Shown in pieces: positions 829-35,806 of a DNA stretch of 37,959 bases. Source of the DNA: a virus. Numbering within the stretch: the stretch's first letter is position 1; each line of letters opens with the position of its first letter. Under the pieces are notes generated by a model. It was not told the origin of the DNA and did no database searches. It saw nothing but the letters and a program-made list of their open reading frames with translations. Both the position numbers and the translations under genes were made by a program. The stretch lies in the IMG/VR virus record IMGVR_UViG_3300031902_000025, positions 1 to 37,959 of that record. One strand, 5' to 3'.

Positions 829-1893
829 TTAGCTTTGCTGCGGCACGCCAGCCTGCGCCGCGATGGTCGCGTCCTTCTTGATCGAGCCTGCGCTCGTACC
901 CATCCAGAACGCGCCGATCAGAGAGATAATCACCAGCGTCGCGGTCACGATCTGCGTCTTCGTCGCGGCGTCGTAGGTGTACGGGTGAATGAACAGGCAA
1001 TCGACCAGCAGCATCATCGGCATCGATAGCATGATCATTGAGATCCAGAACACCGGGTTGTACCAGAACGGGCGCTCCGAGTTCTGCATCGCGAGTCCAC
1101 GTTCCGCCGCGCCAGCGATGCCGCCCTGGCCGACCTCGAGGATCTGGATGATCTGCGGATCGTTGACCACCGCAGTCGTCACGGTCTTCACCAGATCCGG
1201 CGAGGCTTGCATCTGCTCGACAGCAGCCTGAAGGTTCGGTGCGCCTGCGGCCTTTGTGATCACGTCGATGATCTGCGAAACGTTCGCGGCGTCCTTCGCC
1301 GACGAGATCGAGTCGGGCTTCATCATCTTCGCGATCTGCGGGATGAGGTTCGCGAGCGCAGGACCGAAGGCGGTGATCAGTGGAATCAGTAGAGCGAGTG
1401 GCATGGTCGTTCCTTGTGGTGTCGAAACTGGTGCTACTTGCGGTGCGTTGGTCAGGTACTTCGCCGGGAAGCTCGCGGCATCGGCTTTGGTGACGTAACC
1501 CTTGCTGCCAATATCGAGCGCTTTGTTCTGGTCGTATGCAGTGGTGCCAGCCCGGAACAAAACGTAGTCGTTCGCCTGGCCGACTGCCATCGGCCAGAGG
1601 ATTGCCATGTAGGTGTCCTCAAACGTCGCAAGTCTGCCGCGATAGTCCGCAAAGTACCGTTCAACATAGTCGAGCTGATCCTCTGCTGACATTGCCGCGA
1701 GCGCGTCGGTGGTCGTGCCGAGGCGACGCGCAGTACCTGGCATGAACTGGATCAATCCAGTCGCGCCAGAAACGATGTTGCGTTTCGCTGGATCGAGCCT
1801 CGACTCAAAAGTCATGCACGCCAGCAGCCACGCCGGCTCGATGCCGAGCGAGGCGCAGATGACGTTGAGCTTGCTCTGAAACATTGGCGTCAC
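829..1893 (-). CDS. SLT-type lytic transglycosylase fused to a holin-like membrane domain
   Basis: The 354-residue protein starts at GTG 1893, overlapping the upstream stop as GTGA; ATG 1884 is an alternative start. Residues 20-125 look like a soluble lytic transglycosylase domain: catalytic Glu30 in TFESRLDP and the GATGLIQFMPGTA motif near residues 43-55. This domain would cleave peptidoglycan glycan strands. From about residue 164 the protein changes character: a hydrophobic stretch (PLALLIPLITAFGPAL), an amphipathic linker, then two clear membrane segments near residues 276-300 and 312-332, ending with a GTSAGSIKKD tail. This tail resembles three-TM phage holins. An internal ATG at 1404 has an AAGGA ribosome site six bases upstream, so a separate 191-residue holin-like product is plausible. 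The role is host lysis, or cell-wall opening from the virion. Confidence 0.82.
   Translation of the reverse strand: MTPMFQSKLNVICASLGIEPAWLLACMTFESRLDPAKRNIVSGATGLIQFMPGTARRLGTTTDALAAMSAEDQLDYVERYFADYRGRLATFEDTYMAILWPMAVGQANDYVLFRAGTTAYDQNKALDIGSKGYVTKADAASFPAKYLTNAPQVAPVSTPQGTTMPLALLIPLITAFGPALANLIPQIAKMMKPDSISSAKDAANVSQIIDVITKAAGAPNLQAAVEQMQASPDLVKTVTTAVVNDPQIIQILEVGQGGIAGAAERGLAMQNSERPFWYNPVFWISMIMLSMPMMLLVDCLFIHPYTYDAATKTQIVTATLVIISLIGAFWMGTSAGSIKKDATIAAQAGVPQQS
1402..1415 (-). promoter_or_regulatory. Internal ribosome binding site and ATG for a holin-like product
   Basis: Read leftward, AAGGA (1415-1411), six bases and ATG (1404-1402) lie in frame inside the transglycosylase gene, exactly where the lysozyme domain ends and the hydrophobic domain begins. 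This would allow a second, membrane-only product of 191 residues. The signal is visible in the sequence; its use is inferred. Confidence 0.4.
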
Positions 1894-27672: not shown

Positions 27673-27891
27673 CTACCACCACTTCTTGAGGTTGGTGCTG
27701 CCGGTGAATCCGCCCAGACCGAGCAGGATCTGGATCAAGAAGATCGCGGCGACGACGGCGACGAGCCCCTTGCCGATCTTGTTGAATGGTTCCGGGAGTC
27801 CGAAGTAGTCGATCAGCCACCAGATCAACCAGCAGATCGCGCCGACGACGATGATCTGCACGACGAGGTGCAGCAGGGTTCCAATGTCCAT
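27673..27891 (-). CDS. Two-TM small membrane protein (Thivi_2564-like), 72 aa
   Basis: The start is ATG 27891 with AAGGGA five bases upstream. Two hydrophobic helices (about residues 7-28, LVVQIIVVGAICWLIWWLI; and 40-58, GLVAVVAAIFLIQILLGL) flank a conserved-looking loop DYFGLPEPFNKIGKG. This resembles the small Thivi_2564-type membrane proteins seen in phages and bacteria. It may be a holin-like or superinfection-related protein; its place in the early block argues against a main lysis role. Confidence 0.7.
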   Translation of the reverse strand: MDIGTLLHLVVQIIVVGAICWLIWWLIDYFGLPEPFNKIGKGLVAVVAAIFLIQILLGLGGFTGSTNLKKWW

Positions 27892-27931
27892 GTGAGTCCC
27901 TTCAATTATTGCGGTTGACAAACGGGAGCCG

Positions 27932-30740: not shown

Positions 30741-31675
30741 GCGCGGCTATGGTGGTCCCCGGAATCTACCCGGACCTCACCATGGCCGAATATCTGGCGA
30801 TTCCCGCTGTCTCAGCGGGGGTTGCCAGAGCGGTCGTGGACGAGTGCCCCCTGTCTGGGTGGTTTCAGTCACCCTTCAACCCCTCCCGCGTGCTGGACCA
30901 GTCCAAGGCATCGGATGTCGGCTCGATCACCCACCAGATCTTCTTGGAAGGCGGCAGAATGGACGGGATCGAGGTCATCGATCCCCGCGACCACCCGGCA
31001 GAGAAGACCGGCGCGATCCCGGAAGGCTTCACCAACAAGTCGATCCGGGCGGCGCGGGATGCCGCTCGCGCAGCTGGGAAAATCCCGGTGCTGCTCGACA
31101 CGATGGACGAGATCGAGACTGCGTCCGACGCGATCTACGGGTTCGCGCAAAGCCTGAAGCAAGAGGAACCGGCGGTCTGGGCTGCGCTGCAACCGGACGG
31201 TGGGCAGAGCGAAGTGACGATGGTCTGGATCGATAACGGCGTGCCGTGCAAGCTCCGCACCGACCGGATCTCGACCGACTACGGCGTCACCGTGGATCTG
31301 AAGACCACCACCGGAAGCGTCGATCCTGACCGCTGGGGGCGCACGCAACTGATCGGCGAAGGCTACTATTTCAGCGCGGCGTGGTATCGCCGCGGCATCG
31401 AGAAGTTGACCGGCGTCCAGACAGAGTACTTGTTCCTCGCGGCAATGCAGAACGCGCCGCACCTCTGTTCGCTGATCGGTGTCGATGCAGCAACGCTCGA
31501 TCTGGGCGCACGCAAGGTCGAACGCGCTCTCGCTGTCTGGGCGCGTTGCCAGGCCAATCAGAATTTCCCGGCGTACCCGTCGCGTGCGGTGTATCCATCA
31601 CTGCCAGCGTGGGAGTCGATGAAGTTCGACAACGTCGAGCAGCAAGATCCTTTCCTTCTGGGGACGCAAGCATGA
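30737..31675 (+). CDS. RecE-like PD-(D/E)XK exonuclease, 312 aa
   Basis: Starts at GTG 30737, overlapping the upstream stop. Family features include SKASDVGSITHQIFLEG (residues 56-72, conserved His), CKLRTDRIS with Asp176, VTVDLKTT with Asp187 and Lys189 (the D-x-K core), and the QLIGEGYYFSAAWYRRG motif. This is the pattern of phage exonuclease VIII / DUF3799-type nucleases, which make 3' single-strand tails for annealing. The Sak4-like ATPase two genes on is its likely partner. Length is normal for the domain. Confidence 0.85.
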   Translation: MSAAMVVPGIYPDLTMAEYLAIPAVSAGVARAVVDECPLSGWFQSPFNPSRVLDQSKASDVGSITHQIFLEGGRMDGIEVIDPRDHPAEKTGAIPEGFTNKSIRAARDAARAAGKIPVLLDTMDEIETASDAIYGFAQSLKQEEPAVWAALQPDGGQSEVTMVWIDNGVPCKLRTDRISTDYGVTVDLKTTTGSVDPDRWGRTQLIGEGYYFSAAWYRRGIEKLTGVQTEYLFLAAMQNAPHLCSLIGVDAATLDLGARKVERALAVWARCQANQNFPAYPSRAVYPSLPAWESMKFDNVEQQDPFLLGTQA

Positions 31676-32082
31676 GGAAGGCTGGCGAAGGAAGTGTTCG
31701 CACCGATGGCTATTTGATGTATGAGGTCGGCGGTCGGTCGGTGCTTCGGCATCGGTTGATAGCAGAGCGCGCCCTTGGGAAGCCGCTACCCAAAGGCGCA
31801 GAGATTCACCACGTCGATGGTGATCGCGGCAACGATGACACATCGAATCTTGTTATCTGCCCGTCCCGCGCGTATCACCAGTTGCTACATCGAAGGCAGC
31901 GCGCGCTCGACGCGTGCGGGCACGCTGATTGGAGAATGTGCCAACTCTGCAAGCAGTGGGGGCCAGAGTCCGAATTGCGGATATACAAATCGGGCAACAA
32001 GTGGCACCCATCATGCATCCAACAAAGCGAAAGGGACCGACATGGCAATCCAGTTTCGACCGGCAATCAGATCCAACGTTAA
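31672..32082 (+). CDS. HNH endonuclease (homing type), 136 aa
   Basis: Starts at ATG 31672, overlapping the exonuclease stop as ATGA. Residues 40-75 (PKGAEIHHVDGDRGNDDTSNL and YHQLLH) are an HNH_3-type ββα-metal site with His46/His47, Asn59 and His69/His73. A zinc-binding pair follows (CQLCKQW at 90-93 and HPSC at 112-115). Its end overlaps the next start by 41 bases, and its bases look less GC-rich than its neighbours. It is probably a mobile free-standing homing endonuclease that settled between two recombination genes. Confidence 0.82.
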   Translation: MRKAGEGSVRTDGYLMYEVGGRSVLRHRLIAERALGKPLPKGAEIHHVDGDRGNDDTSNLVICPSRAYHQLLHRRQRALDACGHADWRMCQLCKQWGPESELRIYKSGNKWHPSCIQQSERDRHGNPVSTGNQIQR

Positions 32083-33016
32083 CCTCCTAATCGGGCTTGC
32101 AGGAACGTCCGGTTCTGGCAAAACGTACTCAGCACTTCGCTTGGCGACCGGCATGGCGCAGGGCAGGCGTTTCGCGTTGATAGACACAGAGAACGGGCGC
32201 GCGTTGCACTACGCGGATCAGTTTCCGCTCTTTGATCATTGCGACTTGCACGCGCCATTCACCCCTGACCGTTACGCCGAAGCGATACTTGCCGCTGATG
32301 CTGCGGGCTACCCGGTAATCGTGGTTGACAGCATGAGCCATGAGTGGGCTGGAGAAGGTGGCGTGCTTGAGTGGCACGAAACCGAGCTGACGAGAATGGC
32401 TGGTGACGATTGGAAACGTCGAGAGGCTTGCACGATGGCGGCATGGATTCGCCCGAAGCAAAACCATCGGATGCTCGTCCAGAAGCTGCTGCAGACCAAG
32501 GCCCACGTCATTTTCTGCTTCCGCGCCGAGGCGAAGGTCGAGATCGCGAAAGACGACAAAGGCAAGACGATCATCCGTCCCAAGACATCGACAATCGGAC
32601 TCGACGGCATCATGCCGATCAGCGAAAAGAATCTGCCCTACGAGCTGACCGTCTCTCTGCTGATGACCGCCGACGCACCTGGGGTGCCGAAGCCGATCAA
32701 ATTGCAGGAGCAGCACCGCAAGCTGTTTCCCCTCGAAAAGGCGATCACCGAGGATAGCGGCATGGGTGTCGCAGCATGGGCCGCTGGTGGATCCAAAGCG
32801 GCCGAGCCGGTGCAGGGACCGACGCATGCAGTCGGTGAGTACCTGGACCCGATGCCGCTCTTCGACGCGATCAGGAACGCGACGACGGGCAGCGCGTTGC
32901 GCGAGATCTCTGATCGCATCGCGAAGTTGAGGCTGCTCGATCAGGATCGCATCAATCTTCGCGAGGCCGGGCGGCAGCGCGTCGAAACACTACGCATTGA
33001 AAGGGGTGCAGCATGA
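32042..33016 (+). CDS. Sak4-like / AAA_24 RecA-fold ATPase, 324 aa
   Basis: Starts at ATG 32042, inside the end of the HNH gene. Walker A GTSGSGKT is at residues 21-28, LIDTENGRALHY follows, and Walker B VIVVDSMSHEW is at 92-102. A segment KAHVIFCFRAEAKVEIAKDDKGK and PKTSTIGLDGIMPISEKNLPYELTVSLLM fits phage RecA-like single-strand annealing/strand-exchange ATPases. The C-terminal 90 residues are more variable and helical. With the exonuclease it forms a recombination pair. No SSB gene is visible nearby. Confidence 0.8.
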   Translation: MAIQFRPAIRSNVNLLIGLAGTSGSGKTYSALRLATGMAQGRRFALIDTENGRALHYADQFPLFDHCDLHAPFTPDRYAEAILAADAAGYPVIVVDSMSHEWAGEGGVLEWHETELTRMAGDDWKRREACTMAAWIRPKQNHRMLVQKLLQTKAHVIFCFRAEAKVEIAKDDKGKTIIRPKTSTIGLDGIMPISEKNLPYELTVSLLMTADAPGVPKPIKLQEQHRKLFPLEKAITEDSGMGVAAWAAGGSKAAEPVQGPTHAVGEYLDPMPLFDAIRNATTGSALREISDRIAKLRLLDQDRINLREAGRQRVETLRIERGAA

Positions 33017-33198
33017 CGAACGCAGATTGGGACGTGGGACGTGGACCGTGTTACCCGGAGGTGAAGTGCTCTCCGGTGATCATTGACCCGTGCCCGCCGC
33101 ATCAGATCGAGTGCAAGGTCAACAACGTGCCCGAACCGCCGACGCTGCTGCTGCTCGCGGTCGGTGTCGTGGCGGTCCTGCTGCGGAGGCGCAAATGA
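33013..33198 (+). CDS. PEP-CTERM-like small protein, 61 aa
   Basis: Starts at ATG 33013 (ATGA overlap) with AAGGGG upstream. The C-terminal 23 residues have all three parts of a PEP-CTERM sorting signal: VPEPPT, a hydrophobic helix (LLLLAVGVVAVLL), and the basic end RRRK. The N-terminal 37 residues are soluble, with four Cys (positions 13, 19, 27, 34) and several Pro. No N-terminal signal peptide is visible, unlike typical host exosortase substrates. It could be processed by a host exosortase or be a C-tail-anchored membrane protein. The role is unknown. Confidence 0.75.
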   Translation: MTNADWDVGRGPCYPEVKCSPVIIDPCPPHQIECKVNNVPEPPTLLLLAVGVVAVLLRRRK

Positions 33199-33899
33199 GC
33201 GACCAGTCGCAAGGGGCGCAGCGGCTGGCGCTGCAAGAGTTGATCGACGCCAACAAAGCCTGGGAGGGGCACGCCTATCTCGGGCGCATACCCGAGGATG
33301 TGCACGAGCGGATGGCAAACGCATGGGAAGCTGCTATAGACGCCTTGTCCGCACCCGCTGAGTCGCAAGGGGCGCAGCCGGTAGCGGAGACAGTCTTTGT
33401 GCAGCCGGTTCCAGATCACTGCGACCGCATCGTATGGCGTGATCGTTACTATCACTTGGACACAGCGAACAATCCGCTGCTTGTGCCGCCGCCCGCGCAA
33501 CCCGCACCCGACGCGACGCCACAGACCGCCCCGGCTGCCGCTGCTCGCCTATCCGCAGAGCGGCTACCGAGGGAGTGGACGCCAGCAATGCGCGAGAAAG
33601 CCGAACGATGGTCAACGATGGATTACACCACCGCAGATTTGTTAGACGCATGGAATGATATCTATGACGCCGGGGCCGCCCCTGTTGAGCGGGAGCGGCC
33701 AGAGCCGGTTGCGCGATACCTGCGCGATACAGGTGATGCACAACCAATGACGCTGGCCGAGGCCGAGGAGTTGTGTAAACAACTAGGTTGGCACGGCCCG
33801 ACAATTGCCCTTGCCGCGTTTGAGCGTGGGCAATACGCAATGCGGGCGTTCTATGAGGGCAGACCTGCACTCGCTGCCCAACAGGAGAGCAAGCCATGA
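33195..33899 (+). CDS. Hypothetical modular early protein, 234 aa
   Basis: Starts at ATG 33195 with GGAGG six bases upstream and ATGA overlap. Several short modules are joined by Pro/Ala linkers: LALQELIDANKAWEGHAYLG, a beta segment DRIVWRDRYYHL, the linker PPPAQPAPDATPQTAP, then EKAERWSTMDYTTADLLDAWNDIYD and LAEAEELCKQLGWHGPTIALAAFERGQYAMRAFYEG. Linker-rich proteins of this sort are frequent in accessory phage regions. No catalytic motif. Function unknown. Confidence 0.68.
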   Translation: MSDQSQGAQRLALQELIDANKAWEGHAYLGRIPEDVHERMANAWEAAIDALSAPAESQGAQPVAETVFVQPVPDHCDRIVWRDRYYHLDTANNPLLVPPPAQPAPDATPQTAPAAAARLSAERLPREWTPAMREKAERWSTMDYTTADLLDAWNDIYDAGAAPVERERPEPVARYLRDTGDAQPMTLAEAEELCKQLGWHGPTIALAAFERGQYAMRAFYEGRPALAAQQESKP

Positions 33900-34060: not shown

Positions 34061-34544
34061 ACGCGATAAACTGCGGGAGGCGCTGGAACAGTGCAAAACT
34101 AGCGAAGGTGCGCTCGTCATTCAGGGCAACAAGGACGCGCAAATAGCGCATCTGGAACGGCGCATCTACGCAATCAACAGAATTGCCGCTGCCGCCCTCG
34201 CTCTCCCCACGCAGCAGGCGCAGCCGATGACGCGGGAGCAGGCAATGGAGTTGATGGACAAACATAGCGGAGTTTCAATCGGCTCATATTTTCCGTGGAT
34301 GATCGACGCCATCATCGCCGCGCACGCGATGGGTGCCACGCAGCCAGCGGGAGTGCCGAGAGAGCCGGACGAGGAAATGCTGGCTGTTGCCGAGCGGATG
34401 CGCCCACCGGTCGGGTCACCGGAGCAGTTAGCGCAACCCGGCTATTGCGAACGTTGGAGACAGCGCCATCGCCACAACGCAATCGAACTGTGGCACGCCA
34501 TGCACGACTCCTATACTCGCAGACTGGCCGGGGGCGGCCGGTGA
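34050..34544 (+). CDS. Hypothetical protein with N-terminal coiled coil, 164 aa
   Basis: Starts at ATG 34050. A coiled-coil-like start (DERDKLREALEQCKTSEG, DAQIAHLERRIYAINRI) is followed by a Gln/Pro linker, MTREQAMELMDKHSGVSIGSYFPWMIDAIIAAHAMG, and a C-terminal helical part. It shares the linker style of the 234-residue gene. It overlaps the methyltransferase start by GTGA. Function unknown. Confidence 0.65.
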   Translation: MSDERDKLREALEQCKTSEGALVIQGNKDAQIAHLERRIYAINRIAAAALALPTQQAQPMTREQAMELMDKHSGVSIGSYFPWMIDAIIAAHAMGATQPAGVPREPDEEMLAVAERMRPPVGSPEQLAQPGYCERWRQRHRHNAIELWHAMHDSYTRRLAGGGR

Positions 34545-35806
34545 GATACCTGAGCGTTTGCAGCGGCATCGAAGCAGCGACGGTCGCCTGGCAGCCTCTC
34601 GGATGGAGCGCTGTCGGTTTCAGTGAGATCGACACGTTCCCATCCGCTGCTCTCGCGCATCACTATCCCACCGTCGCCAACTTCGGCGACATGACAAAGT
34701 TCAAGGAGTGGCCCGATGCAACTTTCGATGTTCTCGTCGGAGGAACACCTTGCCAGTCGTTCAGCGTCGCAGGACTCCGAAAAGGATTGGCTGACCCGCG
34801 TGGCAACCTCATGCTCACCTATCTTGCAATTGCTGACCGATATCGGCCCGAATGGCTGGTTTGGGAGAACGTCCCCGGCGTCCTGTCATCAAACAAAGGA
34901 CGGGATTTTGCGGCCTTCCTCCTTGGGCTGGCAGAACTCCGGTATGGGTTCGCCTTCCGAATTCTTGACGCTCAATACTTCGGAGTTCCCCAGCGACGGC
35001 GTCGCGTGTTCGTTGTCGCAAATTCTAGAGGATGGCAACGTGCCGCCGCGGTACTTTTTGAGCGTGCGAGCCTGCGCGGGGATCTTGCGCCGAGCAGAGA
35101 ATCGGGGAAAGACGTTGCCGGTCCAATTGCGGGATGCTCTAACGGCGGCGGCGCAAACGGCCCAGGTAGAACCGCCGACGACGCCGACTCGCTGATCGTC
35201 ACCAACGCCGAGGGCAGCGACGGCTTCACGCTGACCCAAGCGAACCTCGGCAAGCACATCAACAACCAGACGCCGCTGATCGCGTTCGATCCCAGACAGA
35301 TCACATCGCCAGACAACCGCTCGCAGCCGCTTCCGGGTGACCCGTTCCCAACTCTCGCTGCAAGTCCAGATGTCCCGGCGATTGCGTTCGCCGATGTCGC
35401 GATCTCGTTCAAGCCATCGCACTTCACGCGAGACAAGGATGGCGCCCCAGACGATGTGTTCCCGCCGCTGTCGAAGGAAGCGGATCGCGGCGACCAGGAA
35501 GCCGTCGTCTTTCAACCCCGCATAGGTCGCAACGGGCGAGGGCAACCGTCCGATGTCGTCCCAGCGCTGAACGGCGCGGACGCGGGCGACACCAGCGATA
35601 TGCGGCCCTGCCTCGCGTCTGCTGGTGCAGTGCGTCGCCTCACGCCGCGCGAGTGCGAGCGCCTGCAGGGATTCCCAGACGACTACACGCTCGTGCCGTT
35701 CCGCGGGAAGCCTGCGGCAGACGGTCCCAGATACAAAGCGCTTGGGAATTCGATGGCGGTTCCGGTGATGCGCTGGATCGGGAATCGGATCGCGGAGGTC
35801 GCGTGA
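34541..35806 (+). CDS. C5-cytosine DNA methyltransferase, 421 aa
   Basis: Starts at GTG 34541 in GTGA overlap. Motif I LSVCSGIEAATVAW, motif IV GGTPCQSFSVAG with catalytic Cys71, motif VI ENVPG (109-113), motif VIII QRRRRVFVV, motif IX LTPRECERLQGFPDDYT and motif X ALGNSMAVP are all present. The variable target-recognition region spans about residues 170-370. No restriction partner is visible, so it is an orphan enzyme that probably protects phage DNA from host restriction. A second gene is nested in the +1 frame over residues 59-218, which constrains both sequences. Confidence 0.92.
   Translation: MRYLSVCSGIEAATVAWQPLGWSAVGFSEIDTFPSAALAHHYPTVANFGDMTKFKEWPDATFDVLVGGTPCQSFSVAGLRKGLADPRGNLMLTYLAIADRYRPEWLVWENVPGVLSSNKGRDFAAFLLGLAELRYGFAFRILDAQYFGVPQRRRRVFVVANSRGWQRAAAVLFERASLRGDLAPSRESGKDVAGPIAGCSNGGGANGPGRTADDADSLIVTNAEGSDGFTLTQANLGKHINNQTPLIAFDPRQITSPDNRSQPLPGDPFPTLAASPDVPAIAFADVAISFKPSHFTRDKDGAPDDVFPPLSKEADRGDQEAVVFQPRIGRNGRGQPSDVVPALNGADAGDTSDMRPCLASAGAVRRLTPRECERLQGFPDDYTLVPFRGKPAADGPRYKALGNSMAVPVMRWIGNRIAEVA
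34716..35195 (+). CDS. Overprinted gene inside the methyltransferase, 159 aa
   Basis: An open frame of 159 codons in the +1 frame relative to the methyltransferase, starting ATG 34716 with AAGGAG seven bases upstream. The sequence has a coherent character: QLSMFSSEEHLASRS, SEKDWLTRVATSCSPILQL, GPNGWFGRTSPASCHQTKDG, GWQNSGMGSPSEFLTLNTSE and RYFLSVRACAGILRRAENRG. I associate this pattern with a phage hypothetical family often encoded next to or over Dcm-like genes; this is from memory. It overlaps the region coding for motifs IV-VIII. Function unknown; co-expression suggests a methylation-related helper or anti-restriction role. Confidence 0.6.
   Translation: MQLSMFSSEEHLASRSASQDSEKDWLTRVATSCSPILQLLTDIGPNGWFGRTSPASCHQTKDGILRPSSLGWQNSGMGSPSEFLTLNTSEFPSDGVACSLSQILEDGNVPPRYFLSVRACAGILRRAENRGKTLPVQLRDALTAAAQTAQVEPPTTPTR

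Follow-up and report, generated by a model that had tools for sequence, protein, structure and literature searches.

A 61-residue protein with a C-terminal PEP-CTERM-type sorting signal is encoded in the early operon of a phage

Gene order and coding status of the locus

The window, i.e. the whole stretch of DNA analysed here, corresponds to an IMG/VR virus record and comprises 37,959 bases; its portal, coat and terminase genes are P22-like. Isolate phages that come closest in portal and coat (about 36–40% identity) are, among others, Rhodoferax phage P26218, EBPR podovirus 1, phage DSL-LC05 and Xanthomonas phage PBR31. Genes for an exonuclease VIII-like protein, an HNH endonuclease and an AAA_24 ATPase are located in the rightward early region, together with the small gene described here (mini gene), orphan genes and a gene for a cytosine methyltransferase (Table 1), the true start of which probably lies later. 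The downstream neighbour of the mini gene harbors a 26-nt direct repeat (88%; 33205–33230 and 33361–33386) encoding SQGAQ-type segments. In the leftward early operon, an open frame (27673–27921, minus strand) encodes an orphan membrane protein of 82 aa, probably with two helices, for which no Pfam or PHROG match was obtained. A gene product of the late region (829–1893, minus strand) combines a lytic-transglycosylase-like N-terminal part with C-terminal hydrophobic segments.

Table 1. Location of the mini gene, its parts and genes of the same early region (positions in the window)
Feature	Position	Strand	Basis
Exonuclease VIII-like gene (phrog_412), same early operon as the mini gene	30743..31675	+	
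AAA_24 ATPase (phrog_1366, recombination-type), upstream; TGA overlaps ATG of the mini gene	32042..33016	+	PF13479 49 bits; phrog_1366 E 3e-63
Ribosome-binding site AAAGGGGTG	33000..33008	+	4 nt 5' of the ATG of the mini gene; from sequence
Mini gene, 61 aa, with C-terminal PEP-CTERM signal	33013..33198	+	ORF, coding signature, Pfam/NCBIfam matches
N-tail, residues 1–38, polar, C13, C19, C27 and C34, no signal peptide	33013..33126	+	hydropathy and charge
PEP-CTERM tripartite signal, residues 39–61 (VPEPPT, 13-residue hydrophobic helix, RRRK)	33127..33195	+	PF07589, TIGR02595, control scores
Downstream gene, 234 aa, no family; ATG overlaps TGA of the mini gene	33195..33899	+	
C-5 cytosine DNA methyltransferase ORF, same early region	34295..35806	+	PF00145 180 bits; phrog_116

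The mini gene is coupled to both neighbours by 4-base overlaps: its ATG shares an ATGA with the TGA of the AAA gene, and its TGA shares another with the ATG of the downstream gene. The translation of the complete frame is MTNADWDVGRGPCYPEVKCSPVIIDPCPPHQIECKVNNVPEPPTLLLLAVGVVAVLLRRRK*. A sequence-only reading of this DNA had described a 61-residue protein of the early operon, preceded by a good ribosome-binding site and containing four cysteines, and the ORF with its two overlaps, the site located 4 nt ahead of the ATG and the four cysteine positions given in Table 1 are in line with that description. The GC content at codon positions 1, 2 and 3 is 0.67, 0.45 and 0.82, which is a coding pattern. 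The phase of third-position GC changes to the mini frame across the ORF and afterwards towards the frame of the downstream gene; the mini gene is therefore a real gene and not the 5' extension of a neighbour. While an in-frame GTG at 33090 would lengthen the downstream ORF across more than half of the mini gene, a spurious ORF within such an extension was rejected as highly improbable, since third-position GC over 33010–33190 marks the mini frame rather than the downstream one and a match to a curated profile is not expected from a non-coding frame. The ORF is a genuine phage early gene.

The C-terminal signal and the N-terminal tail

Residues 39–61 (VPEPPTLLLLAVGVVAVLLRRRK) form the extreme C-terminus of the protein and comprise the tripartite PEP-CTERM signal (VPEPPT, helix, RRRK) postulated earlier. 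In the profile search proposed at that time, the mini-protein reached 31.2 bits with PF07589 (E 2e-7, gathering cut-off 20.7) and 26.8 bits with TIGR02595 (cut-off 16), so that both curated cut-offs were exceeded by approximately 10 bits. It was the single PF07589 match of the whole window in a six-frame search, and no match above the cut-off was found in 14 control genomes. The top bacterial matches are tails of ordinary PEP-CTERM proteins, e.g. NNIPEPDTILLIGLGVVAVWVARR (62%). The hydrophobic stretch is short (13–14 residues), with a spacing as in PEP-CTERM domains.

The main alternative is a small phage membrane protein of the ordinary single-pass type, for example an exclusion or inhibitor peptide, in which a proline-rich juxtamembrane stretch resembles PEP-CTERM by chance and no contact with an exosortase occurs. 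The absence of both a signal peptide and homologues fits such a protein, and a helix followed by RRRK would be expected in any protein with N-out/C-in topology. With a local HMM built from 24 PEP-CTERM tails, sequences in which helix and RRRK were kept and residues 1–44 shuffled already scored 20.8 bits on average. None of these 5,000 shuffles, however, reached the score of the mini-protein (39.4; maximum of the shuffles 38.1), and the best-scoring one among 38,128 ORFs of 160 related phage loci reached 11.8 bits. The length of the helix is normal for PEP-CTERM, while a plain anchor would usually be longer, and the curated cut-offs were clearly passed. This alternative is considered rather unlikely. 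When the PEP stretch and the helix were shuffled, the maximum was 29.3, and the score of the mini-protein was attained by none of 15,000 shuffles in total. Helix and basic tail account for about half of the local HMM score and the PEP stretch for the remainder; since shuffles retaining helix and basic tail still score lower, the PEP part itself carries information. A true C-terminal PEP-CTERM sorting signal is thus well supported by sequence, albeit in an unusual architecture.

The N-terminal part of the mini-protein is acidic, the net charge of residues 1–43 being -3 with three basic residues in this 43-residue tail. No hydrophobic segment was detected in residues 1–38 (best 11-residue Kyte-Doolittle mean 1.0, compared to 3.2 in the C-terminal helix). 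A hidden signal peptide is likewise absent, since the frame is closed by an in-frame stop 4 codons upstream of the ATG. The lack of an N-terminal signal peptide, noted before from the sequence, therefore holds. PEP-CTERM proteins are defined by two marks, an N-terminal signal peptide and the C-terminal domain (PMC9850573, PMC12188702). Without the Sec signal peptide, the mini-protein lacks one of these defining features and is not an ordinary exported PEP-CTERM protein by the published definition. Weak bacterial matches spanning the N-tail (e.g. L101, 40% over residues 7–58) include frames with internal stops and were taken as chance similarities.

Relatives of the phage and its putative host

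Homologues of the mini-protein were not found in INPHARED phages, IMG/VR or GTDB genome contigs, and conservation of the PEP motif can for this reason not be gauged, which is the principal weak point of the case. Short tail queries gave no match in phage isolates, a weak result, as the low-complexity filter may mask such queries. A PEP-CTERM tail was found in none of the 80 AAA-gene loci most closely related, and the 50 loci inspected have no comparable small gene behind the AAA gene. For the downstream gene and the exonuclease gene, searches of IMG/VR likewise yielded no relatives. Three contigs from three other metagenome datasets (L113, L114 and L115) are 99.985–100% identical to parts of the window between 11419 and 27593, which indicates that the same phage recurs across datasets; none of the three spans 33013–33198.

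The mini gene might also derive from a host PEP-CTERM gene, the 3' end of which was captured and is now an open frame in the phage operon, in which case the sorting signal would be true by descent and the product would have no selected function yet. The tail aligns best with the tails of Burkholderiales PEP-CTERM proteins, the gene is missing beside the AAA gene in the 50 relatives inspected, and orphan genes accumulate in early phage operons. On the other hand, the N-tail matches no PEP-CTERM protein convincingly, and the ribosome-binding site together with the exact ATGA coupling on both sides looks like a maintained gene. Capture is judged improbable, slightly more so than an ordinary membrane protein.

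No tRNA gene that might have been informative about the host was found, and the genomes with terminase relatives disagree. The genome with the closest terminase relative (G596, 60%) encodes an exosortase (206 bits) and 14 PEP-CTERM proteins above the cut-off. The latter score 21.7–40.2 bits, a range that includes the mini-protein (32.1 bits in the same kind of search). The G596 contig with the terminase is phage-like and has a structural gene order in common with the window, but the identity of the coat proteins is only 31%, and the contig may stem from a phage and have been binned with this genome. The next closest terminase (55–56%) belongs to a Rhodoferax MAG (G001/L081), in which neither an exosortase nor PEP-CTERM proteins were found; this 2.7-Mb MAG may be incomplete. 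An exosortase is present in 39 of the 81 genomes of its genus. An exosortase-bearing host is plausible, but the support from these genomes is weak. The phage itself does not appear to encode an exosortase, as no TIGR02602 match was obtained in the window.

Possible role and comparison with known systems

The mini-protein is tentatively regarded as a small inner-membrane protein with the N-terminus outside and the C-terminus inside, most probably serving the host exosortase as a substrate that is either cut by the enzyme or competes for it; this is our preferred reading, although its probability is put at somewhat less than even. The topology is predicted from the charge of the N-tail (-3) as opposed to the RRRK tail and from the presence of one short helix. 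The acidic, cysteine-bearing N-tail of about 43 residues would cross into the periplasm with no need for a signal peptide, as do YidC-type N-tail substrates, and the helix would halt at RRRK in the cytoplasm. VPEP would consequently be positioned on the periplasmic side of the membrane, the presumed site of exosortase action, which is why a role as exosortase substrate or competitor is suggested. The mini-protein would then resemble a host PEP-CTERM protein from which the signal peptide has been removed. Exosortase might cut the tail and thereby release the four-cysteine N-tail into the envelope, or the mini-protein might occupy the exosortase and reduce the display of host PEP-CTERM proteins. 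An altered cell surface, such as in superinfection exclusion, would be a likely benefit. That the phage produces it as an anti-host protein, which mimics processed exosortase substrates, is inserted without a signal peptide, enters or blocks the exosortase pathway early in infection and remodels the cell surface, is possible but doubtful.

Several points argue against an involvement of exosortase. Such an involvement presupposes that an N-tail of 43 residues, among them three basic ones and four cysteines, is translocated. In addition, the mini-protein differs from PEP-CTERM proteins in the missing signal peptide, no homologue of it was found, and the genome of the second closest relative is without exosortase and PEP-CTERM proteins.

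Sorting by exosortase and PEP-CTERM signals is linked to the matrix and the flocs of many environmental Gram-negative bacteria. A literature search (titles and abstracts, few subscription journals) revealed no paper on phage-encoded PEP-CTERM proteins or on phages acting on exosortase/PEP-CTERM sorting, and no phage factor acting on this pathway is known to us. Should the mini-protein gain access to exosortase in the absence of a signal peptide, it would offer a compact means of probing the substrate requirements of the enzyme, and surface display would be a target in the conflict between phage and host.

The mini-protein shares VPEPxT, a short hydrophobic helix and RRRK at the extreme C-terminus with the PEP-CTERM proteins of Gram-negative exosortase systems (PF07589/TIGR02595), but differs from them in the missing signal peptide, the length of 61 aa and the location in a phage early operon. 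Bacterial PEP-CTERM proteins of very small size are encoded in genomes of the order to which the Rhodoferax MAG belongs, namely L102 (60 aa, MKTMPKARKAGLNAVIAGFAMAVLPLAAFAIGGNNIPEPDTILLIGLGVVAVWVARRIKK) and L194 (51 aa), which consist of little more than a signal-peptide-like segment and the sorting domain. These are similar in size to the mini-protein, and the NN-[VI]PEP tail of L102 is 62% identical, but both are bacterial, start with an N-terminal hydrophobic, signal-peptide-like segment and have no four-cysteine N-tail. Cleavage by signal peptidase would bring them into the form in which the phage protein is made to begin with. The short targets of exosortase J (TIGR04200, model length 57) are of comparable size as well; the mini-protein scored below the cut-off of this family (13.9 bits versus 40, E 0.034).

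Two pattern scans of IMG/VR yielded about 35 contigs with PEP-CTERM-like matches, mostly PEP-CTERM ORFs. The ORFs on these contigs (L084–L095 and L199–L223), which are classed as viral, have the C-terminal signal in common with the mini-protein. In contrast to the latter, the complete ones are about 180–380 aa long and nearly all have an N-terminal hydrophobic segment, the clearest case with a merely weak one by a crude measure being L221 (383 aa). Some of them may be located in flanking host DNA and not be phage cargo. A 237-residue PEP-CTERM frame with an N-terminal signal-like segment occurs on both L084 and L095, a 192-residue one on L092 and L095, and L086 carries a relative; these shared frames may represent phage cargo or host flanks that the contigs have in common.

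The Pf3 coat protein is the standard YidC N-tail substrate with N-out/C-in topology. It is inserted by YidC, and its N-tail is accessible to proteinase K (PMC8920935). Unlike the mini-protein, it is a virion protein of a filamentous phage and has no PEP motif. A short N-tail translocated without a signal peptide, one helix and a basic C-tail would be common to both, and the charge and hydropathy of the mini-protein, as deduced from its sequence, are consistent with YidC N-tail substrates of the Pf3 coat type.
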